Virus record (IMG/VR): IMGVR_UViG_3300031823_000004
Coordinates: 1-64,000 of that record
From: a virus
Direction: 5' to 3' (one strand)
DNA length: 64,000 nt
The stretch's first letter is position 1; each line of letters starts with the position of its first letter. The notes beneath the pieces are model-generated. The model worked only from the letters and a program-made list of their open reading frames with translations, was not told the origin of the DNA and ran no database searches. Shown here one piece after another: positions 803 to 18,546 of this stretch. Position numbers and translations under genes: made by a program.

Positions 803-2941
803 ATGATCAGTCATGTCGGCCGTCGCGCTGTTGCAGCCAGGACGGTAGTTTCCAAGCCAAACGATCCAACTCCACCGCAAACCGGCTTCGGCCTGTTCAG
901 GGCGGCTGTCTCCGAACAGTGGCTGCGCATGAGCACGCGCGGGCTGTACCGCACCAAGGTGGACACGGACCTGCTGTGGAACACCTATCTGGCCAGCTTC
1001 CCGGCTGGCAGCAACCCGGTCTACCGGACGCGCACGGAGCACGACTGCGGCTGTTGCCGCCGGTTCATCCGGACAGTCGGCAGCGCGGTGACGGTCATCG
1101 ACGGCAAGCTGGTCAGCATCTGGGATACCGACATCGCAGGCGCTTACGGCACTGTCGCGGCTGCTATGTCCGCACTGGTCAAGTCGTATCCGATCGACAA
1201 CCGGCTCCTGCGTACCGAGGCGAAAGTCGGTACCGACAGGAGTTACGAAGGCGACGACGTTGCATCCCTGAAGACGTGGGAGCATTTCTGCGTTCACCTG
1301 CCCAACAGCCTGGTGTGCAACCGCAAGGACATCGGCAAGAAAATGTCGGTTGCACGTGCCCAGCATGACGTGCTCCTGCGTGCTCTGGCGGGCAGCCCAG
1401 CGGTTGGCGATACGCCAGCGTCAGCGCCGATCGGGCTGGATACGCTTGATTCCGTGCTGGAGATCATCGACCAGGGCTCGCTTTATCGCGGCAAAGAGCA
1501 TCGGCCTGCCGTCGACAAGTTCCGCGCCCTGAAGCGGGAGTTCGATCGTCTGCCGCCGGAAGACCGTGATGCTTTCGTGTGGTTCTGGATGGAAGACGTG
1601 CCGGGGTCCGTCACCATGATCCGCAACACGGCGATCGGCACACTGCTGGTCGATCTGGCCGAGGGCGAGGATCTGGAGTCGGCGGTCCGAAAGTTCGAAG
1701 TGTCGGTTATGGCGCCAGCAAACTACAAGCGGCCGACGGCGCTGGTGACCAAGGCGATGGCCGATCGTGCCAGGACGACAGTGCAGGAACTCGGCCTGAC
1801 GTCGGCACTCCAGCGCCGCTACGCCACCCTGGCGGACGTGTCGGTCAACAATGTGCTGTTTGCCGATCGCAGTGCGCGGAAGGCTATGGCTGGCGACGTG
1901 TTCAGCGAGATCGCAACGCCGTCCGCGGTAAAGCCCAAGGCGTTCGACAGGGTTGAAGAGATCGGCGTCGACAAGTTCCTGGCCGATGTCCTGCCGCGCG
2001 CCACGTCGCTGGAAATCCTGGTGGAAAACCGGCTCGCCGGTAATTTCGTCAGCCTGACCGCTCCGGTGGATGCCAAGGCTCCGCTGATGTTCAAATGGGG
2101 CAACGCGTTCTCGTGGTCCTATACGGGCGATCTGGCGGACTCGTCGGTGAAGCAGCGGGTGAAGCGCGCTGGTGGCATAGTCGACGCTGAACTGTGCTGC
2201 CGTCTGGGGTGGTTCAACACTGACGACCTGGACCTGCACATGACGGAGCAGGGCGGTTACGAACTCTACTACGGCACCAAGCACAGCACGTCGCCCAGTG
2301 GCGGCCGTCTGGACGTGGATATGAACATCGGCGGCGAGACGCGCGAGCCGGTCGAGAATATCTTTTACAGTAACGTCAACCGCATGCGGGAGGGTCTGTA
2401 CTCGCTATTCGTGCATTGCTTTACGCAACGCGACTCGAAGGACGTCGGTTTCGAGTGCGAGATCGACTTCAAGGGCAACGTGCGCCGTTTTGTCTATGAC
2501 AAGATGGTGCGCTGGCATGAGAAAATCGTCGTGGCCGACTTTCGCTACACGCGTGCCAACGGGATCGAGTACATCACGTCCCTGCCGTCCACGTCAGCGT
2601 CACGCAAGGTGTGGAACGTCGATACCGAGGCTTTCCACCGGGTCAACGTGGTCATGCTGTCGCCGAACCACTGGGATGGAGAGCGCGGTGTCGGCAACCG
2701 GCACACGTTTTTCATGCTGGCGGACTGCCTGAACGACGGCACGGCCAGGGGGTTCTATAACGAGAACCTGCGGCCGGAACTCGATCAGCACCGCAAGGCG
2801 CTCGAAATGGTCGGCTCCAGGATGCGTACGGAAGAGTCACAGGATCAGTTGTCCGGCCTGGGCTTTTCCGACACGCAGCGCAACCATATCGTCGTTCGCG
2901 TCACCGGTGCGGTGACGAGGACACTGCGGGTTGCGTTCTGA
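803..2941 (+). CDS. Large conserved phage protein of unknown function
   Basis: A 712-residue protein of a type repeatedly found in large tailed phages, with no assigned function that I can name. The N-terminal part carries a cysteine-rich stretch, EHDCGCCRRFIR, after a KVDTDLLWNTYLASFP-like segment that looks conserved. The C-terminal half includes LGWFNTDDLDLHM and YYGTKHSTSPSGGRLDVDMN, which resemble a beta-sandwich module. The start is uncertain: ATG 803 has only a weak ribosome site and ATG 929 would begin just before the conserved N-terminal segment. The next gene overlaps its stop by one base, so the two are probably co-translated. It lies in the replication/metabolism block, so a role there is more likely than a structural one, but this is inference. 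Confidence 0.75.
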   Translation: MISHVGRRAVAARTVVSKPNDPTPPQTGFGLFRAAVSEQWLRMSTRGLYRTKVDTDLLWNTYLASFPAGSNPVYRTRTEHDCGCCRRFIRTVGSAVTVIDGKLVSIWDTDIAGAYGTVAAAMSALVKSYPIDNRLLRTEAKVGTDRSYEGDDVASLKTWEHFCVHLPNSLVCNRKDIGKKMSVARAQHDVLLRALAGSPAVGDTPASAPIGLDTLDSVLEIIDQGSLYRGKEHRPAVDKFRALKREFDRLPPEDRDAFVWFWMEDVPGSVTMIRNTAIGTLLVDLAEGEDLESAVRKFEVSVMAPANYKRPTALVTKAMADRARTTVQELGLTSALQRRYATLADVSVNNVLFADRSARKAMAGDVFSEIATPSAVKPKAFDRVEEIGVDKFLADVLPRATSLEILVENRLAGNFVSLTAPVDAKAPLMFKWGNAFSWSYTGDLADSSVKQRVKRAGGIVDAELCCRLGWFNTDDLDLHMTEQGGYELYYGTKHSTSPSGGRLDVDMNIGGETREPVENIFYSNVNRMREGLYSLFVHCFTQRDSKDVGFECEIDFKGNVRRFVYDKMVRWHEKIVVADFRYTRANGIEYITSLPSTSASRKVWNVDTEAFHRVNVVMLSPNHWDGERGVGNRHTFFMLADCLNDGTARGFYNENLRPELDQHRKALEMVGSRMRTEESQDQLSGLGFSDTQRNHIVVRVTGAVTRTLRVAF

Positions 2942-3258
2942 TGGCTCGCGTTGGGATACCGGAGGATCTGGAACACGACCCGTCGTACGAGCGGCAGCGG
3001 TTGGTGGCCAGGTATCTTCTCGGGATCGCTCTTAACCGGCTGCCGCGGGAGCGCCCAGCGCGAAGACTGTTTGAACGGGCGCAACCGCCGACGCGTGATG
3101 AACTGATAGCTGTCGCTTTGCGGGAGGGGATTGTCGAGTACACACCCTGGCATCACGCGCCGTGCTGTCCGTCCAACGACTGGTCGCACGCAATGCTTCC
3201 GGAAGGCCCTTGTAACTGCGGTGCTGAATACCGCAAACATCGACTGAAAGATCGATAA
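2941..3258 (+). CDS. Small hypothetical protein with Cys/His cluster
   Basis: 105 residues whose ATG shares its first base with the previous stop (TGATG). The C-terminal third has CC...H...CNCG (HHAPCCPSNDWSHAMLPEGP region followed by CNCG), which could hold a metal ion. The N-terminal half is arginine-rich (LNRLPRERPARRLFERAQPP). No family is recognised. Tight coupling suggests it is expressed with the large upstream protein. Confidence 0.65.
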   Translation: MARVGIPEDLEHDPSYERQRLVARYLLGIALNRLPRERPARRLFERAQPPTRDELIAVALREGIVEYTPWHHAPCCPSNDWSHAMLPEGPCNCGAEYRKHRLKDR

Positions 3259-3277
3259 CCCAGAAAGGAACACCACT

Positions 3278-3670
3278 ATGTCTGAAATGTTCGAAGAGGC
3301 TACCCGTCTGCATCTGCGCTTTCTGACCGCGAGCGGATCGCTGTCTGTCGAAGACCTGTGGGATCTTCCGCTGAAGCGTCCTTCGCATACGGACCTGAAT
3401 ACGGTGGCCCGTACGCTGGACCAGCAACTGAAGCGCGATACGGTCTCGTTTGTTGACGATGACGACAAGATTGACCCGCGTCAGCAACTGGCTTTCGAGA
3501 TCGTGAAGCATGTCATTGCGGTGAAAAAGGCCGAACAGAAGGCAGCTTTGGAAGCCCGCGACAAGGCGGCGATGAAGCAGAAGCTGCGCGCGGTGCTTGC
3601 CCGCAAGCAGGACGAAAAGCTGGAAAGCATGTCCGCCGAGGATATCGAGGCGGCTATCGCTGCGCTGTGA
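3278..3670 (+). CDS. Hypothetical protein upstream of the helicase
   Basis: 130 residues, preceded by AGAAAGGA about eight bases before the ATG. The sequence is charged and helical, with a likely coiled coil in the second half (VKKAEQKAALEARDKAAMKQ). It ends in a four-base overlap with the helicase GTG start, so the two are translationally coupled. The pairing suggests an accessory to the helicase, but no domain supports that directly. Confidence 0.75.
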   Translation: MSEMFEEATRLHLRFLTASGSLSVEDLWDLPLKRPSHTDLNTVARTLDQQLKRDTVSFVDDDDKIDPRQQLAFEIVKHVIAVKKAEQKAALEARDKAAMKQKLRAVLARKQDEKLESMSAEDIEAAIAAL

Positions 3671-11094: not shown

Positions 11095-11230
11095 ACTGGT
11101 GAAACTCGTAATCAGTGTTGCTTCTAAGGCAGCCCTGACAGCGGTAACTGTCGTGGTATTTTTGTACGTCGGGTTATGTACGATTGATACGACATTTGCG
11201 GCTGTTTTCTATCTCTGGCATACAAGATGA
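11078..11230 (+). CDS. Small membrane protein
   Basis: 50 residues from a GTG start with AGGAG about a dozen bases upstream, inside the end of the previous gene. One clear hydrophobic segment (ALTAVTVVVFLYVGL) is followed by a second aromatic hydrophobic stretch. Its stop overlaps the next ATG (ATGA). Likely an inner-membrane peptide of unknown role. Confidence 0.55.
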   Translation: MKTVAELVKLVISVASKAALTAVTVVVFLYVGLCTIDTTFAAVFYLWHTR

Positions 11231-11784
11231 TACCGCACGATCCTGGCGGCAAAGGGCGTTTGCCGCTACTGCCAGGATACATTGGCAGTGCGCGCTTCGC
11301 CGGGGACAACCACGAACACCGTCTATGGCTGTCTCGTGTTCCTGTTAGCAGGCCAGTTCTCGCATCCGAGTATGCCCTATGGATCGGCGTCAACCCGTCA
11401 ACGGCTGGTGTGGACACAGACGATATGACGGTGCGCAAGGACATGGGATTCAGTAAGCGTCTGGGCTTGCCAGCGTATATAAAAATGAATGTCGCCAGCT
11501 ACCGCGCTACCGACCAAAAGCGATTCAATGATCCGGCTATTGAAGTGAACCACCCCAACAATCACCAGCAAATCTGTCACTTTGCTTCTGCATGTGGCGC
11601 AGTCGTGGTCGCCACAGGCAACCCGCATCCCCGGCTGCGGCCGCTCGCGCTCGACCTGTTTGGTATGCTGTGTGACGCTGGCATAGACATGCTGTGCCTT
11701 GGCCTGACGCGTGAAGGCTGGCCGAAGCACAGCAGCCGGATCGGGTACATTACCGAGTTCGAAAAATACAAACCAATCAGGTGA
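11227..11784 (+). CDS. DUF1643 family protein
   Basis: 185 residues matching the DUF1643 pattern: ALWIGVNPSTAGVDTDD, then MNVASYRATDQ, then VVVATGN and LCLGLTREGWPKH. The family is common in phages and bacteria. Its biochemical function is not settled, and its nearness to DNA metabolism genes suggests nucleic acid work. ATGA overlap with the membrane peptide upstream. Confidence 0.85.
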   Translation: MIPHDPGGKGRLPLLPGYIGSARFAGDNHEHRLWLSRVPVSRPVLASEYALWIGVNPSTAGVDTDDMTVRKDMGFSKRLGLPAYIKMNVASYRATDQKRFNDPAIEVNHPNNHQQICHFASACGAVVVATGNPHPRLRPLALDLFGMLCDAGIDMLCLGLTREGWPKHSSRIGYITEFEKYKPIR

Positions 11785-11971: not shown

Positions 11972-14900
11972 ATGCACCCGTTCGGTTTCGACGCGGAGAC
12001 ATCGTCTTTCGTCAACCTGAATCTGGGTGCCGACGCCTACACCCGCGACCCTCGCACCCGCTGCCTGATGTTCGCCCGCAAGCCAATCGGCATGAACACC
12101 GCACCACGGCTATGGCGCGAAGGCGATCCGGTGCCGTACGACATGATCGGCCACATAGCGAACGGCGGCACCTTTTCAGGCTGGAACGTCATCGGCTTCG
12201 ACCGGCTGGTCTACCAGCGCATCATGGTGCCGCAGCACGGCTTTCCGCCGATCTCCGACGACGCCTGGAAAGACAGCATGCACCTCGCTGCGGCGGCGAA
12301 CCTGCCGCGCAGCCTGGACGGCTGCGCCAAGGCGGTGGGCGTCCAGCATAATGTGGACCTGAAGGACACCAACCGCATCCGGCGCATCACCGACGCCAAC
12401 CGGACGCCTCTCCCGGCGCCGGTGGGTGAAATACTCGACTACCCGGAGCGGTTCCAGCATATCCGCACGACGCCGCAGTACACTCTGGTGGACGATCTCC
12501 AGTGGCTTGCCGCGCGCTGCATTCAGGACGTGGAGATGGAGGAGCAGGTTTTGCTCCGGCTGCCGCCGTGGCCCAGCATGGAGCCGTGGGTCAGCATGCC
12601 AGCGATCGACCGGCGCATCAACGACCGTGGGGTGATGATCGACCTGCCCCTGGTGCACGGCTTAGCCCACGCCGCAGCGATCGAGACCGCCAGGCTGGAC
12701 AGCATGATGGACAAGCTGACCGGCGGCGAGGTGGCCAAGACCACCAACATCGAGTCGCTGAAAACGTGGCTGGTCGCCCGGAAGGTGGAACTGCCGCTGA
12801 ACGACGTGAAAGCGGAAGACGAGGGTGACGAGGACGAAGAGGATGACAGCGATCCGAAGCCCAAAGGCGGCCGGGAGTCACCCTGGCGGCTGCGCAAGAG
12901 CGATATCGCCGACCTGCTGGCCCGGACAGACATACCGGAAGAGTGCCGTCTGGCGCTTAGCTGGCGGGCCGAGGCGGCGAAGGCCTCTACCGCCAAGCTG
13001 CGCGCAATGGCGCGGATGGCCGACGATGACTGGCGGCTGCGCGGGATCCTGCTGCTGGGCGGTGCCCAACAAACGATGCGGTTTTCATCGGTAAAAGTCC
13101 AGCTTCACAACACGTTACGTGACGCCTTTGCCAATCTGGACGACATTGCCGACACCAACGGGCTGAACACCAAGGCGGACGCGGAAAAGGTGCATCGTCT
13201 GGCCGAGGTGGCGCTCGCCGCGGCGATCGAAGTCGGACGCACCGGCGACGTCGACCTGATGCGCTCGATGTACGACGTCACGCGCCGGGACGCGCAGGGG
13301 CGGTCCTACCACTCCGGGGTGATTGCCTGGATCGCGCGCATGGTGCGCCGCTGCATCACCGTGCGCGACGGCATGCTGCTGCTGAACGGCGACTGGGCGC
13401 AGGTCGAGGCGCGCATCACCGTCTGGCTGTCGCAGCAGACGGACATGCTCCAGGCCTTCGCCTCGGGCGGCGATGTCTACCGGATCGCGGCCGCCGGGAT
13501 CTTCCGCTGCGGCGTCGAGCAAATCACCAAGCTGATGCGGCAAACCGGCAAGGTCTGTATCGCAGAAGGGTCTCTGGTCCTGACCAACCAAGGCTTAGTG
13601 CCTATAGAAAAAGTTACTACTTGCATGAGGATTTGGGATGGTATAGAGTGGGTAGCCCACAGCGGTGCAGTGTGTAACGGATATGCCGATACAATCGAAT
13701 ATGACGGACTCAGAGCCACTCCGGACCATCTTGTCTGGACGGAAGGGCAACAAACCCCGATGGAGTTTGGAGACGCCGCCTCCGGCAAGATCAGTCTCGC
13801 TAGAACCGAGTATCGTGGGAAAGCGCTACGGCTGGGTGACGATTGTATCCGTAGAAAAAAGAGAGGTAAGTCAAGGGAACTGGTACGTCGCGACACGCTG
13901 CGAAGGATGTGGGAGTACACAGTGGACGTATCTGTTCAATTTGGTAAGCGGTCGGTCGAAAGGTTGTCAGCAGTGTTCTCGACCAAGACGAGTTCCGATA
14001 AAATTGGACCGAGTGCTTACGGATGCGCGTATGCGATGTCAGAATGCTACCCATCCGAATTTCAAGAATTACGGAGGCCGCGGCATACAATTTCTTTTTC
14101 CGTCTGTTTTAGAAGCTGGTTTATGGGTCCAAGAAAATCTTGGACCGAAACCAGACAGAGCGGAGTTGGACAGAAAAAACAACAACGGGCACTACGCTCC
14201 TGGCAATCTACGATGGACTACGCGCAGCCAGAATTTACTGAATACCAGGATAAACAGGTTCGTGACCTACGCCGGGAAACAAGTTCCGCTGCTTCATGCG
14301 GTTCACGTCATTCGAACATTGCGTCCGAAATGCCCGTATGCGGACAACACACTGAAGCGTCTGCTGGATGCGTACGAATCGATAGAGGGGTTGCTGAGCC
14401 GAATAGACAAACCGCCACGTACGGCAAAGCCACGTGGCGTGTATGGGACATTCTCAACGCCGGACCCCGAAATCGTTTCACTGTATCTGGACGTTTAGTG
14501 CACAACTGTACACTGGCACTGGGCTTTGGCGGCGGCCCCAACGCCCTGGTTGCGATGGGCTACAATTACGGGCTGCTGATGAATACCAAAGAGGCGGCGC
14601 CGATCGTGCAGGCCTTCCGCGAGGCGAACGGCGCTACCAAGGCCTATTGGTACGCGACCGACGACTGCGCCGCTATGGCCGTCCAGTACCCCGGACGGGA
14701 GTTCCCGGTCCCTCCCCTTGGGCTGGTGACGTATTTCGTGACGCCGGGGGAAGACTGCCTGTGCTGCCGCCTCCCCAGCGAGCGCCTGCTGCGCTACTGG
14801 GCACCGCGGCTGCGGCAAGAGTACTGGGCGGACGGCAACCCGAAAAGCCGCCTTAGCCTTAGCGGGCTGGCGATCAAGGGCAGGGCGGTGTTCCGCCGGT

Positions 14901-15157
14901 CGCTGTACCATACGATCCTGGTGGAGAACCAGGTGCAGGCTATCGCCGCGGACTTGCTGGTGACCGCACTGGGCAACGCCGACCGGAACGGGATATTGGT
15001 GGACCTGCATGTGCATGACAACCTTGCTGCCGAGACGCGCAAGGATGACATAGGATGGAGCCTGCCGATGTTCCGTGAGTGCATGATGGACATGCCGCGC
15101 TGGACCGCCGGGCTCCCCATCAATGTCGATATTGAAGCCGCAGCGAGGTTCGGGTGA
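11972..15157 (+). CDS. Family A DNA polymerase (3'-5' exonuclease plus polymerase) interrupted by an intein
   Basis: 1061 residues; without the intein (529-845) the mature enzyme is 744. The N-terminal exonuclease domain begins GFDAET (D7, E9), with GWNVIGFD and a CIQDVE motif further on. An acidic linker lies near residue 290. Motif A is DWAQVEAR (D474). Motif B is RQTGKV split by the intein from CTLALGFGGG (Phe where Tyr is usual). Motif C is HVHDN (H1015, D1016, N1017), where most Pol I enzymes have HDE. This is the replicative polymerase candidate. The intein must splice for motif B to form. The stop overlaps the next start by one base. Confidence 0.93.
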   Translation: MHPFGFDAETSSFVNLNLGADAYTRDPRTRCLMFARKPIGMNTAPRLWREGDPVPYDMIGHIANGGTFSGWNVIGFDRLVYQRIMVPQHGFPPISDDAWKDSMHLAAAANLPRSLDGCAKAVGVQHNVDLKDTNRIRRITDANRTPLPAPVGEILDYPERFQHIRTTPQYTLVDDLQWLAARCIQDVEMEEQVLLRLPPWPSMEPWVSMPAIDRRINDRGVMIDLPLVHGLAHAAAIETARLDSMMDKLTGGEVAKTTNIESLKTWLVARKVELPLNDVKAEDEGDEDEEDDSDPKPKGGRESPWRLRKSDIADLLARTDIPEECRLALSWRAEAAKASTAKLRAMARMADDDWRLRGILLLGGAQQTMRFSSVKVQLHNTLRDAFANLDDIADTNGLNTKADAEKVHRLAEVALAAAIEVGRTGDVDLMRSMYDVTRRDAQGRSYHSGVIAWIARMVRRCITVRDGMLLLNGDWAQVEARITVWLSQQTDMLQAFASGGDVYRIAAAGIFRCGVEQITKLMRQTGKVCIAEGSLVLTNQGLVPIEKVTTCMRIWDGIEWVAHSGAVCNGYADTIEYDGLRATPDHLVWTEGQQTPMEFGDAASGKISLARTEYRGKALRLGDDCIRRKKRGKSRELVRRDTLRRMWEYTVDVSVQFGKRSVERLSAVFSTKTSSDKIGPSAYGCAYAMSECYPSEFQELRRPRHTISFSVCFRSWFMGPRKSWTETRQSGVGQKKQQRALRSWQSTMDYAQPEFTEYQDKQVRDLRRETSSAASCGSRHSNIASEMPVCGQHTEASAGCVRIDRGVAEPNRQTATYGKATWRVWDILNAGPRNRFTVSGRLVHNCTLALGFGGGPNALVAMGYNYGLLMNTKEAAPIVQAFREANGATKAYWYATDDCAAMAVQYPGREFPVPPLGLVTYFVTPGEDCLCCRLPSERLLRYWAPRLRQEYWADGNPKSRLSLSGLAIKGRAVFRRSLYHTILVENQVQAIAADLLVTALGNADRNGILVDLHVHDNLAAETRKDDIGWSLPMFRECMMDMPRWTAGLPINVDIEAAARFG
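13556..14506 (+). mobile_element. Intein in the polymerase motif B (317 residues, in frame)
   Basis: Block A starts at C1 (codon 13556-13558): CIAEGSLVLTNQGLVPIEKV. Block B has TPDHLVWT. Blocks F and G are VWDILNAGPRNRFTV and GRLVHN, with N317 followed by Cys+1 of the C-extein. All nucleophiles needed for class 1 splicing are present. The 200-odd residues between the Hint halves have no recognisable domain in the polymerase frame. In another frame the same DNA encodes an HNH endonuclease. The stretch is visibly more AT-rich than the flanking polymerase coding sequence, a sign of transfer. Confidence 0.9.
13665..14498 (+). CDS. HNH homing endonuclease nested out of frame inside the intein
   Basis: Up to 277 residues in a frame shifted +1 from the polymerase. 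A zinc-binding N-terminal domain (GKRYGWVTIVS, CEGC and CQQC pairs) is followed by a classic HNH homing core: DARMRCQNATHPNFKNYGGR, AELDRKNNNGHYAPGNLRW and QNLLNTRINRF. The stop TAG (14496-14498) falls within the Hint C-terminal block. Possible starts are GTG 13665, ATG 13683, ATG 13701 or GTG 13812; none has a good ribosome site. It probably cuts intein-free polymerase genes and drives homing. It cannot be produced by simple translation of the polymerase frame. Confidence 0.85.
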   Translation: MQCVTDMPIQSNMTDSEPLRTILSGRKGNKPRWSLETPPPARSVSLEPSIVGKRYGWVTIVSVEKREVSQGNWYVATRCEGCGSTQWTYLFNLVSGRSKGCQQCSRPRRVPIKLDRVLTDARMRCQNATHPNFKNYGGRGIQFLFPSVLEAGLWVQENLGPKPDRAELDRKNNNGHYAPGNLRWTTRSQNLLNTRINRFVTYAGKQVPLLHAVHVIRTLRPKCPYADNTLKRLLDAYESIEGLLSRIDKPPRTAKPRGVYGTFSTPDPEIVSLYLDV

Positions 15158-15740: not shown

Positions 15741-16213
15741 GCAGCTTGTTCAACATGGCGCCGATCTCTGAAGCCGTACAGGCAGAACAGGAGATTACGT
15801 ACTCGCTGGTCGATCTGCCGCGGGCGTGGAACGGCCCCAGGCCGTGGTGCCGGACTTGCGAGGCACCGGTCGAGTGGTGGCTGTGGGATCGCTACGCAGA
15901 CGGCTTCTGGGGGTTCGCAGTGCGCTGTCATGGCGCGATGATGGGCGGCCTTGTGCCGGAACAGGCTCCAGGTTTTGCAATACTGGAGACGTTTTGCGAA
16001 ACGGAGCCGCGGCACCCGCTGGGTGCCTGGTGGTGGGTTGACGCGCACGGCAACCCCATACAGGACAGTGTCGCGTTTAACGCTGCGATGAACACCGGGA
16101 CAGGCTACTTCCGGTCTCCGCTTGGGATATGGCTGCGCAGGCACGCCGACGAAGTCGGTATGGTCCCTCTTGCTTTCATGCTGATGCTTTGGATATGGAG
16201 CCTGATGCGATGA
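15737..16213 (+). CDS. Hypothetical Trp-rich protein with C-terminal membrane segment
   Basis: 158 residues from a GTG start (TTG 15719 is possible). A CxxC (WCRTCEAP) is followed by a Trp-rich stretch and a later cysteine. The last 20 residues are hydrophobic (VPLAFMLMLWIWSLM), consistent with a tail anchor. ATGA overlap with the GT9 gene suggests coupled expression. Confidence 0.65.
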   Translation: MSSLFNMAPISEAVQAEQEITYSLVDLPRAWNGPRPWCRTCEAPVEWWLWDRYADGFWGFAVRCHGAMMGGLVPEQAPGFAILETFCETEPRHPLGAWWWVDAHGNPIQDSVAFNAAMNTGTGYFRSPLGIWLRRHADEVGMVPLAFMLMLWIWSLMR

Positions 16214-17067
16214 GAATCCTGGTCCGCCGCCTTGGCGCGCTTGGCGACGTGGTGCTGACGACGCCGGTCATCCGGCGTCTACGCCGCGAGAACCCGGATA
16301 TCGAGATCGGTGTGCAGACTGGCTATCCAGACGTGTTCCGCAACTCGCCGCACCGGCTGACCGTGTTCCAGCCGGGCCCACTGCCTTATCCGTGGACGCC
16401 GCAGGGAGGGCTAGACCATACGATCGAACTCGACCTGGCCTATGAGCGGCGGCCGGACATGCATATCGTCCGGGCCTTCATGCTGGCAGCCTTCGACGAC
16501 GAAGGCGATCCGGCCGATCATCGCCAGGAAATTTTTCCAGGCGGTGTTTCGCCTTTTTTCGGTGACCAGAAGGTGGTTGCCATCCATGCTGCCAAGGCCG
16601 GCTGGCGCAGCCGGACGCTGCCCGAGGCGACATGGATTGCGGTGGTCGAAGGGATCCGCGAGCGCGGAATGTTCCCGCTGATGGTGGGCTCCATGCGCGA
16701 CAGCGCACCGAAGGTGAAGGCGGCGGCTTTCCACCTGCACGACATCATGTCCCAGGTGCGCATCATCGACCGGTGCACCTGCTTCATCGGTTCGGACTCT
16801 GGGCTGATGCACGTGGCGGCCACGACCGACGTGCCGATCGTCTGTGCCTTCACCTCGGCGGCTGCGGAACTGCGCATGCCGCGGCGCTACGGCCGCCTGG
16901 ACTGGCGTTTCGAGGCGGTGACGCCGCCACTGGAGTGCATCGGCTGCCTGGCCCGGGCTCCGGTGCCGACGACATCGGAGCCTGCTTGCGAGCGGGGTGA
17001 CTTCGTCTGTACGACAGCGGTAACTGCGGACATGCTGCTGGCGGCAATGGACCGGCTGCTAGGGTAG
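16210..17067 (+). CDS. Family 9 glycosyltransferase (ADP-heptose:LPS heptosyltransferase-like)
   Basis: 285 residues starting at the ATG overlapping the previous stop. The N-terminal MRILVRRLGALGDVVLTTPV is the GT9 glycine-rich start, and the C-terminal FIGSDSGLMHVAATTDVPIVC is the GT9 nucleotide-sugar loop. Cellular members add heptose to LPS core. In a phage it could alter host surface sugars, or glycosylate phage protein or DNA. It converges with the YkgJ-like gene, overlapping it by nine bases. Substrate not determinable. Confidence 0.88.
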   Translation: MRILVRRLGALGDVVLTTPVIRRLRRENPDIEIGVQTGYPDVFRNSPHRLTVFQPGPLPYPWTPQGGLDHTIELDLAYERRPDMHIVRAFMLAAFDDEGDPADHRQEIFPGGVSPFFGDQKVVAIHAAKAGWRSRTLPEATWIAVVEGIRERGMFPLMVGSMRDSAPKVKAAAFHLHDIMSQVRIIDRCTCFIGSDSGLMHVAATTDVPIVCAFTSAAAELRMPRRYGRLDWRFEAVTPPLECIGCLARAPVPTTSEPACERGDFVCTTAVTADMLLAAMDRLLG

Positions 17068-17460
17068 TGGCGAGCCCTTCATTTTCCTTGTTCCGCCGGT
17101 GTGAACAGGAAGTTTTGTCATCGCGCAGGGCATGTGTACGCCCGGTGTGTGATAGCGGCACAGCCACGGGCGGTTTTCGTAATCGTCGCAGCGGCCTTCC
17201 GGTGTCAGGTGTATGCACTGCATCACCCACCAGCCGTTTTCGTCTTTCCGTTCCGGGATGAAGGGGAGCCCGGTGTTGCCCATCCACGGATCGGCGTGCT
17301 TTATCGTCGCAAGTACGACCAGGGCCTCCAGCACTGTCTGCGCATCGCCGAACAGTCCGTTACCGACCGGCAGCCGGATGTCGCGGCAGCACAGGCCTGG
17401 ATCACCGCAATGCGTGCAGAGGGCTTTCTGCACCGGCGACAGTTCGGGAAGATCTGTCAC
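17059..17460 (-). CDS. YkgJ-like cysteine-cluster protein
   Basis: 133 residues from GTG 17460, which overlaps the methyltransferase stop (GTGA). An N-terminal cluster CTHCGDPGLCC is followed by CIHLTPEGRCDDYENRPWLC, the CxxC...CC...C...C pattern of the YkgJ/Fe-S or zinc cluster family often seen next to glycosyl- or methyltransferases. Role unknown; a longer in-frame extension upstream is out of frame with the methyltransferase and rejected. Confidence 0.78.
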   Translation of the reverse strand: MTDLPELSPVQKALCTHCGDPGLCCRDIRLPVGNGLFGDAQTVLEALVVLATIKHADPWMGNTGLPFIPERKDENGWWVMQCIHLTPEGRCDDYENRPWLCRYHTPGVHMPCAMTKLPVHTGGTRKMKGSPLP

Positions 17461-18086
17461 GGCTCGACCTTCCACGCCGGCGGCAGGATCTTCTGCAACA
17501 CCAGGGTAATTTCGTACTGGCCTTGCGGGTGGAGAGACGGCGACAGGTCGTACCGGTACCCGGCATCCTCGTCGCGCAGCACCCGCACCCGGTAGGTGTT
17601 CGGCTCCAGCACCGACTCTACGGTTAGCATGAGCGACCACGGCGTATAGGACCGTTTGTGCTCGCCGGACCATCGTGACGGCGGTACCGTGCAGCGGCGT
17701 TCGTACAGATAGGCGTGCGGCACGAACAGCACGACATGTCCGCCGATCCGGAGCACCCGGAACCACTCGACCAGGCATTCTTCCGGGTTATCGACGTGCT
17801 CCAGTACGTGCGAGGCATGCACCGCGTCGACCGTACCGCTATGGAACGGCAGATGCGTCCCGTCATAGCTGCGCAAGCCGTCCACCGTTTCGATCGTATG
17901 GCCGAACTCGACCCCAACAGCACCGTCAACGATCGGCAGGGCGTCGCCCAGATCGCCGCGGTAGCCGATATCGAGCACCACGGGTCCGTCCAGATAGCGC
18001 CGCCAGAAGCCGGTGGCGCAGCGGGCGGCGTAGCCTTTGCGGCTCTCCCGGCCAACCGGCCGGTTCGGGTCGAAGATTCGGTTCAT
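17457..18086 (-). CDS. SAM-dependent methyltransferase (class I)
   Basis: 209 residues from ATG 18086 with AGGAG nine bases upstream. Motif I is VVLDIGYRGD (residues 36-45). HVLEHVDNPEECL (93-105) and RIGGHVVLFVPH are the usual post-I and post-II motifs of the Methyltransf_11 type. The target may be a sugar, a small molecule or a protein. Coupling with the YkgJ-like gene and convergence with GT9 suggest a modification cassette. Confidence 0.85.
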   Translation of the reverse strand: MNRIFDPNRPVGRESRKGYAARCATGFWRRYLDGPVVLDIGYRGDLGDALPIVDGAVGVEFGHTIETVDGLRSYDGTHLPFHSGTVDAVHASHVLEHVDNPEECLVEWFRVLRIGGHVVLFVPHAYLYERRCTVPPSRWSGEHKRSYTPWSLMLTVESVLEPNTYRVRVLRDEDAGYRYDLSPSLHPQGQYEITLVLQKILPPAWKVEP

Positions 18087-18131
18087 AGGGGCAGGTCTCC
18101 TGTACACCGGAAGCCTACTGCAACTGTATCG

Positions 18132-18160
18132 TTGACACCAGTATTTTAATAATGCATGAT
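18132..18160 (+). promoter_or_regulatory. Sigma70-like promoter
   Basis: TTGACA (18132-18137), 17-bp spacer, CATGAT (18155-18160). Perfect -35, fair -10. It faces a strong terminator only about 80 bases downstream. Confidence 0.55.
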
Positions 18161-18166
18161 GCTGAC

Positions 18167-18248
18167 GCCCGGGGTCGTCCCGGTCTCTTGGACAAACTAG
18201 GCGGGAGGAGAGCCACGATAGGGCCTCCAACGCTCCTCCCGCCCTTTT
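18167..18248 (+). ncRNA. Candidate small RNA between promoter and terminator
   Basis: The segment from the predicted transcription start to the terminator has no ORF with a ribosome site. It could be a free small RNA of about 80 nt, or an attenuated leader for the MarR-like gene starting at 18268. A GC-rich part (CCCGGGGTCGTCCCGG) can fold before the terminator stem. Confidence 0.4.
18200..18248 (+). terminator. Strong rho-independent terminator
   Basis: GGCGGGAGGAG (18200-18210) pairs perfectly with CTCCTCCCGCC (18233-18243), followed by CTTTT. The 22-nt loop is long but the 11-bp stem is very GC-rich. On the minus strand no T tract follows, so it acts rightward. Confidence 0.75.
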
Positions 18249-18267
18249 CCTGAAGGACACCGTACGC

Positions 18268-18546
18268 GTGCGCAAGCAGGTCGCTAAGCTGGTACAGAGT
18301 GGGTGCGATCTCGGTCTGCGCCAAATCCACGTCGTATTCGAATGCCTGGACAACCCGCGTACGGTCAAGCAGCTATCTGAAAGCGGCAACGGGAAATTCG
18401 ACAAACCGGCAGTGTCCCGGGCGGTGCAGCGGCTGCGCGAATTGGGCTATGTCGAGCGGCGCGAGCACCCCGATGACCGGCGCAGCGTCCTGGTGTCCCT
18501 GACGCCGGCAGGCAGAACCTTCGCCAAGAATATCGCCAAGGAATAG
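18268..18546 (+). CDS. MarR-like winged-helix transcription regulator
   Basis: 92 residues from a GTG start. It covers a winged-helix unit: FECLDNPRTVKQLSE, the recognition helix KPAVSRAVQRLRELGYVERR and the wing EHPDDRRSVLVSLTPAG. Shorter than cellular MarR (about 140), lacking most of the dimerisation helices. It probably controls phage promoters; the terminator immediately upstream suggests attenuation of its own transcript. The stop almost abuts the convergent endolysin gene. Confidence 0.82.
   Translation: MRKQVAKLVQSGCDLGLRQIHVVFECLDNPRTVKQLSESGNGKFDKPAVSRAVQRLRELGYVERREHPDDRRSVLVSLTPAGRTFAKNIAKE

Follow-up and report, generated by a model that had tools for sequence, protein, structure and literature searches.

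We report that a family A DNA polymerase gene in the window, the 64,000-nt stretch of viral DNA analysed here, carries an intein and that, inside this intein, an HNH endonuclease is encoded out of frame with the polymerase. Phages, prophages and viral sequences, hundreds in all, keep the same out-of-frame arrangement. An initial annotation, made from the letters of the window, had interpreted the locus as an intein plus a separate HNH gene; this interpretation is supported by the present analysis, which adds that the arrangement is the rule in a whole intein family, spread over several host genes and two phases, with many internal Shine-Dalgarno sites. We consider it very probable that the element is an intein with a homing endonuclease encoded by its own gene, which is overprinted in a different frame, a reading that rests on both open reading frames, the predicted folds, residue conservation, selection on the HNH frame, the absence of stops in the host frame, the Shine-Dalgarno sequences of relatives and the sporadic distribution of one family member.

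Results

The polymerase ORF runs through the entire 951-nt insert without interruption of the frame, with both Hint halves on this one ORF (Table 1). The boundaries first given for the insert, from C1 at 13556 to the end of HN at 14506, and the complete set of intein blocks read in the polymerase frame proved correct. The signatures are an N-terminal Cys, TPDHL in block B, VHN at the end and a Cys+1 after it; C1, the Thr and His of block B and the terminal Asn are invariant in an alignment with 40 relatives. The insertion site is polymerase motif B, and joining of the exteins at the protein level would restore the uninterrupted motif RQTGKVCTLALGFGGG. AlphaFold, given the 40-sequence alignment of the intein frame, predicted the two Hint halves at pLDDT 95-97 and the ~200-residue linker between them at ~45, that is, as disordered, in agreement with the earlier view that no domain is encoded there in the polymerase frame. 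The top matches of the model in a Foldseek search of the PDB were the inteins NpuDnaE, SspDnaB and gp41-1 (best E 1.9e-3, probability 1.00), and an intein profile matched solved inteins at E 0.002; the Pfam Hint domain was recognised weakly, and in single family members only. With its splicing residues, its predicted Hint fold and its position in a conserved motif, the insert has what is expected of an intein, and it would presumably be removed by protein splicing.

Table 1. Positions of the polymerase, intein and HNH features in the window
Feature	Position	Strand	Basis
Family A DNA polymerase precursor with intein	11972..15157	+	PF00476 E 2.2e-15; phrog_17 E 2.9e-61
Polymerase exteins	11972-13555 and 14507-15157	+	flanks of intein
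Intein, 317 aa, C1 to HN, then Cys+1 at 14507	13556..14506	+	conserved splicing residues; PDB fold matches
Hint N-terminal half, residues 1-87	13556..13816	+	pLDDT 95-97 (residues 1-80), 78 (81-90)
Host-frame linker, open, predicted disordered	13817..14422	+	pLDDT ~45; relatives' host-frame pN/pS 1.2-1.4
Hint C-terminal half, residues 290-317, VWDILNAGPRNRFTV...VHN	14423..14506	+	pLDDT 95-97
HNH endonuclease gene, +1 frame, 265 aa, likely ATG 13701, stop 14496-14498	13701..14498	+	phrog_374; model; relatives' ATG
HNH-frame stop codon within intein, upstream of HNH start	13653..13655	+	sequence
Zinc knuckle of HNH protein, Cys 67, 70, 89, 92	13899..13976	+	conservation in 38 relatives
HNH core DRKNNNGHYAPGNLRWTTRSQNLLN, residues 157-181	14169..14243	+	conservation in 38 relatives

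Motif C of the same polymerase (window 15008-15030) reads HDN (VHDN), and HDE in the relatives read. The neighbouring ORFs encode a DUF1643 protein (11227-11784), a family 9 glycosyltransferase (16129-17067) and, on the minus strand, a SAM methyltransferase (17457-18404) and a CxxCxxCC metal-binding protein (17059-17778).

An insert of this kind has been annotated differently before. Genes gp38/gp39 of Sodalis phage SO-1 (L564) belong to the +2 class of the family described below, with the overlapping HNH annotated, and the record speaks of a 'type I self-splicing intron', not of an intein. Taken at its word, this would make the insert a group I intron that carries an HNH gene and is removed from the mRNA. 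We rejected this explanation as hardly credible, given that Rfam detects no group I intron either in the window, searched up to E 1, or, at gathering scores, in six relatives, EP23 among them, and that the open host frame has C1, terminal HN and Cys+1 and a Hint fold predicted with confidence.

In the +1 frame relative to the polymerase, the DNA is open from 13656 to a stop that lies within the Hint C-terminal block, where the HNH had indeed been said to end. The likely start is ATG 13701, whose position is conserved in relatives, and is to be preferred to GTG 13665; GTG 13665 and ATG 13683 are the other candidate starts. The protein matches the HNH endonuclease family phrog_374 (E 1.7e-25) and phrog_3377 (E 3.4e-20), and it has no match in Pfam or NCBIfam. 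A PF01844 search of its own genome also gave no match, because the window HNH has diverged too far to be recognised by that model, and a scan with the single HNH sequence returned no viral contig, alignments being required. Across 38 relatives, Cys 67, 70 and 92 of the zinc knuckle are invariant and Cys 89 is conserved in at least 90%, and in the HNH core R158, Y165 and N169 are invariant, with D157 and R171 at 90% or more. AlphaFold predicted the HNH-frame protein with a mean pLDDT of 86, reaching 93-98 over most of residues 21-180. The model found no significant match and no HNH match in the PDB by Foldseek, and among predicted viral protein structures it found matches down to E 9.5e-13, several of them named HNH endonuclease. 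The claim of a canonical HNH with zinc knuckle and core in the +1 frame was upheld by these data, and confident folds are predicted for Hint only in the polymerase frame and for HNH only in the +1 frame.

Both ORFs and both predicted folds agree with the proposal that one stretch of DNA serves two proteins, but it needs to be narrowed, since simultaneous coding of folded protein is confined to ~117 nt at the Hint-N end and 76 nt at the Hint-C end. Over the middle ~600 nt of the HNH overlap, the polymerase-frame linker is open but disordered and unconstrained. This openness is more than chance would give, because synonymous shuffling of the window HNH core predicts 8.85 host-frame stops and none is observed.

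The arrangement recurs widely. Searches by tblastn with both frames found the same layout, at +1, in Gardnerella phage AB1 and several Streptococcus phages, and a +2 layout in EBPR siphovirus 2, Vibrio phage 97.13, Shigella phage EP23, fEg-Eco19 and Pseudomonas MR14. Hint and HNH alignments, scanned against IMG/VR and GTDB genomes, brought the collection to 563 sequences including the window, in which frames were called by family-specific profiles, a contiguous intein was taken as a pair of Hint halves sharing one open frame, and clusters were formed at 90% identity. Contiguous inteins with an HNH make up 244 clusters, 197 with the HNH at +1, 47 at +2 and none in frame, a zero that describes this family and not inteins at large, as the public scans were seeded from the overprinted-intein family. 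Before clustering, there were 365 sequences at +1, 62 at +2 and 50 without an HNH (counts that include contigs fetched twice); the mini-inteins without an HNH form 38 clusters, 327-561 nt long. The search for other inteins with an HNH in a second frame, which the initial annotation had suggested, thus yielded 244 non-redundant contiguous cases. The host proteins tested include family A polymerases, DEAD/ResIII helicases and SNF2 helicases, and in the family A polymerase several insertion sites are used.

Two insertion sites in motif B, GKx|C and GKxxELA|C, lie four codons (12 nt) apart, and both frame classes occur at both; the groups at these sites are the window insert at 13556 with L009 and L011, and L002-L006, L007 and L008. 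Some polymerase ORFs contain two family inteins (L144, L134, L033 and L088), L144 combining one +2 and one +1 HNH. A series of decaying HNH genes can also be followed (L004 3833-4336, L012, L055, L015 and other mini-inteins).

The census bears directly on whether an ordinary in-frame HNH domain could have been displaced by a frameshift arising in sequencing or assembly, or by a pair of compensating indels. Single-base frameshifts do occur in a few relatives (L100, L221 and L559), and in three clusters (L221, L469 and L559) the HNH is in phase with Hint-N while Hint-C is in another frame, the pattern that single-base frameshifts would give. However, these rare cases give the HNH the phase of Hint-N but not that of Hint-C, and so depart from the rule; the phase is constant in 197 clusters, and another phase in 47, in isolates and independent assemblies alike, and the HNH frame is under selection. 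An HNH in one frame with both Hint halves, the finding that was to have pointed to such a frameshift, was looked for and occurs in 0 of 244 clusters. We rejected the explanation, which the conserved phase already refutes and to which we give practically no weight.

The reading of two overlapping genes is further supported by selection on the two frames. Under the HNH core of contiguous inteins, no host-frame stop was observed against 1,376 expected overall from synonymous shuffling of the HNH (0 vs 1,247.9 in 196 +1 clusters; 0 vs 127.9 in 44 +2 clusters), and the stop count in the third frame was at expectation. Because contiguous inteins had been selected for an open frame, a control with split inteins was needed; there the host frame held stops at chance, 561 against 502 expected overall (554 vs 493.6 in 42 +1 clusters; 7 vs 8 in one +2 cluster). 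Stop codons in relatives, the other observation that would have counted against the first interpretation, are absent from the host frame under the HNH in contiguous inteins; linker stops do exist, in split inteins only. In disjoint pairs, third codon positions of the HNH frame take most of the substitutions (3,617/6,486 for +1 and 826/1,468 for +2). Simple counting estimates put pN/pS at 0.24-0.25 for the HNH frame and 1.2-1.4 for the host frame, with the HNH value the lower one in 67/67 pairs; over the 72 nt that open the intein, ahead of the HNH, host-frame pN/pS is 0.26-0.36. The substitution and stop data together indicate that the HNH is maintained as a protein and the host-frame linker as open sequence only. 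Judged from these patterns, which compare both frames as originally proposed, purifying selection acts on the HNH frame in relatives, and none acts on the amino acids of the host-frame linker.

How the HNH might be translated is suggested by its start region. The window's subfamily has its start codon, an ATG, at intein nt 146 within the block B region of Hint. A well-spaced Shine-Dalgarno often precedes it (Gardnerella AB1 has AAAGGAGGTAATCGAGTATG), and in most relatives the HNH frame is closed by a stop a short way upstream. A Shine-Dalgarno of at least 5 nt stands at the block B ATG in 57/79 clusters, compared with 37.9 expected when Hint codons are resampled with the host gene's codon usage (P 4e-8), and the Tyr codon that supplies the ATG is TAT in 42/56 vs 23.4 expected. 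Mini-inteins without an HNH have TAT at the start position in 8/8 cases, which fits recent deletion of the HNH and makes the TAT bias weaker as evidence alone for use of the start. Other subfamilies have internal starts at offsets 187, 202 and 220, and the +2 class at 92 or 98, with weaker signals. Internal initiation of the HNH in relatives is well supported by these start-site patterns.

In the window itself, no Shine-Dalgarno was found at the HNH start, and the ATG is kept through a TAT Tyr codon, rare in its own exteins (2/17). The early remark that the endonuclease has no clear ribosome site holds for the window HNH but not for most relatives with the same ATG, where a Shine-Dalgarno is present. 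Because the window lacks this signal, that its phage translates the HNH is something we only infer. One could suppose that the HNH of this genome is a relic, untranslated there while the family is active, as the lack of a Shine-Dalgarno might suggest and as decayed copies such as Javan422, in which ~90 residues from the start of the HNH ORF are left and the ATG is lost, would illustrate. We think this unlikely; the window HNH is full length, with zinc knuckle and HNH core present and a high-confidence model, and its ATG is retained with the rare codon.

The lack of a Shine-Dalgarno in the window would also suit programmed ribosomal frameshifting from the intein frame, which would produce a Hint-N/HNH fusion and no free protein, and each phase, +1 or +2, could be reached by a shift. 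But the HNH-frame stop near the start in most relatives, the conserved position of the start codon and the enrichment of Shine-Dalgarno sequences beyond what the Hint amino acids require make this quite improbable in our view, and we prefer internal initiation of a separate HNH gene.

Mobility was considered through the related EP23 intein only, as no close relatives of the window phage were found. The EP23 N-extein has 154 near matches, mostly in Escherichia phages, and an EP23-like intein at ≥95% is present in 9 of these records; the remaining intein matches to EP23 are at 80-90%, mainly in Salmonella phages. UDS3lw has an N-extein 96.7% identical to that of EP23 and an uninterrupted insertion site. 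EP23 and SO-1 share an intein at 98.9% identity between flanking exteins at about 95% and 92%; among other pairs, some have an HNH that exceeds the N-extein in similarity by up to 27 points, and a few have one that falls below it. Among Dhillonviruses, presence of the intein is sporadic. This sporadic distribution, together with inteins more alike than their exteins, fits the usual footprint of homing, and the EP23-like element would probably home by HNH cleavage. Several Salmonella phage records name an intein-containing DNA polymerase, with the HNH unlisted under the match.

Split members occur at a further polymerase site, GxxTGRW, where most of 42 clusters carry Hint-N and Hint-C on separate ORFs, both overlapped by the HNH. 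The start of Hint-C is, in most split forms, no more than ~17 nt from the HNH stop, and a purine-rich stretch often precedes it. In one split polymerase intein (L107 2353-3590), a GIY-YIG nuclease (PF01541 E 6e-8) takes the place of the HNH; its ORF (2607-3509) overlaps Hint-N and shares an ATGA with the Hint-C ORF (3506). Examples of split inteins with an overlapping HNH at GxxTGRW are L235, L238, L243, L245 and L411-L465. In a tree of the HNH made by a quick method, with many branches weakly supported, all +2 members fall in one clade (support 100), and the split forms cluster, with two contiguous forms among them, a topology suggesting that the phase switched once in the history of the family and that contiguous and split forms seldom converted into each other.

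Discussion

We propose the following scenario. Ribosomes in the polymerase frame would make N-extein, Hint-N, disordered linker, Hint-C and C-extein as one protein, from which the intein would excise itself by splicing, while other ribosomes might initiate inside the mRNA at the ATG of the block B region and produce free HNH endonuclease. The HNH would cut intein-free alleles, and recombination would then copy the element in. Protein splicing, DNA cleavage and homing are all steps we infer here. A contiguous intein could perhaps become split when the open linker gains a stop and Hint-C gains a start.

We lean, if only slightly, towards a wider view, in which these elements represent a widespread and overlooked class of mobile elements, with the endonuclease always out of frame and served by its own internal ribosome site, and form a bridge to natural split inteins. 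By overprinting, the family would uncouple the homing enzyme from the splicing protein, and it suggests a route to natural split inteins. Annotation of the host frame only overlooks the endonuclease, and such inteins then seem large with an empty linker. Phages of Gardnerella, Streptococcus, Shigella/Escherichia and Salmonella that carry such elements can be cultured, and through them the family also offers testable nested genes equipped with internal ribosome sites; its split members would be candidate new split inteins for protein engineering.

In textbook inteins, the endonuclease is a domain of the same protein. Our literature search, of incomplete coverage and not establishing priority, found no description of an intein with an out-of-frame endonuclease; it led to the ShiLan work considered below and to an announcement of such a methylase. 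The dCTP deaminase of cyanophage CL131 contains an HNH intein, and the gene was shown to self-excise the insert (PMC6293099). Like the window intein, it has a Hint domain with an HNH between the halves (PMC6293099); unlike in the window family, its HNH is, by eye, in the host frame, which is never so in the 244 clusters. The family profiles do not match CL131, which demonstrates that in-frame phage HNH inteins exist elsewhere and is no proof that these profiles detect such inteins.

Split inteins whose halves flank an endonuclease gene, called fractured genes, were reportedly described by Dassa et al. in 2009 (cited in PMC3229294). The likeness to our family lies in this separate endonuclease gene between intein halves, a form that 42 related clusters take; the window and the 244 clusters differ in having one ORF through both Hint halves.

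The nearest precedent for a hidden gene is the ShiLan domain, with the Pacc40 insertion, in which an out-of-frame HNH lies within mycobacteriophage methylases (PMC11855218). As in the window, the ShiLan insert is open in the host frame, has an HNH with zinc fingers in another frame and is sporadic, with no clear ribosome site reported (PMC11855218). ShiLan, however, has no Hint domain and no splicing, whereas here a complete intein surrounds the HNH, and the overprinted-intein family differs further in occupying several host genes and in having many members with an internal Shine-Dalgarno.
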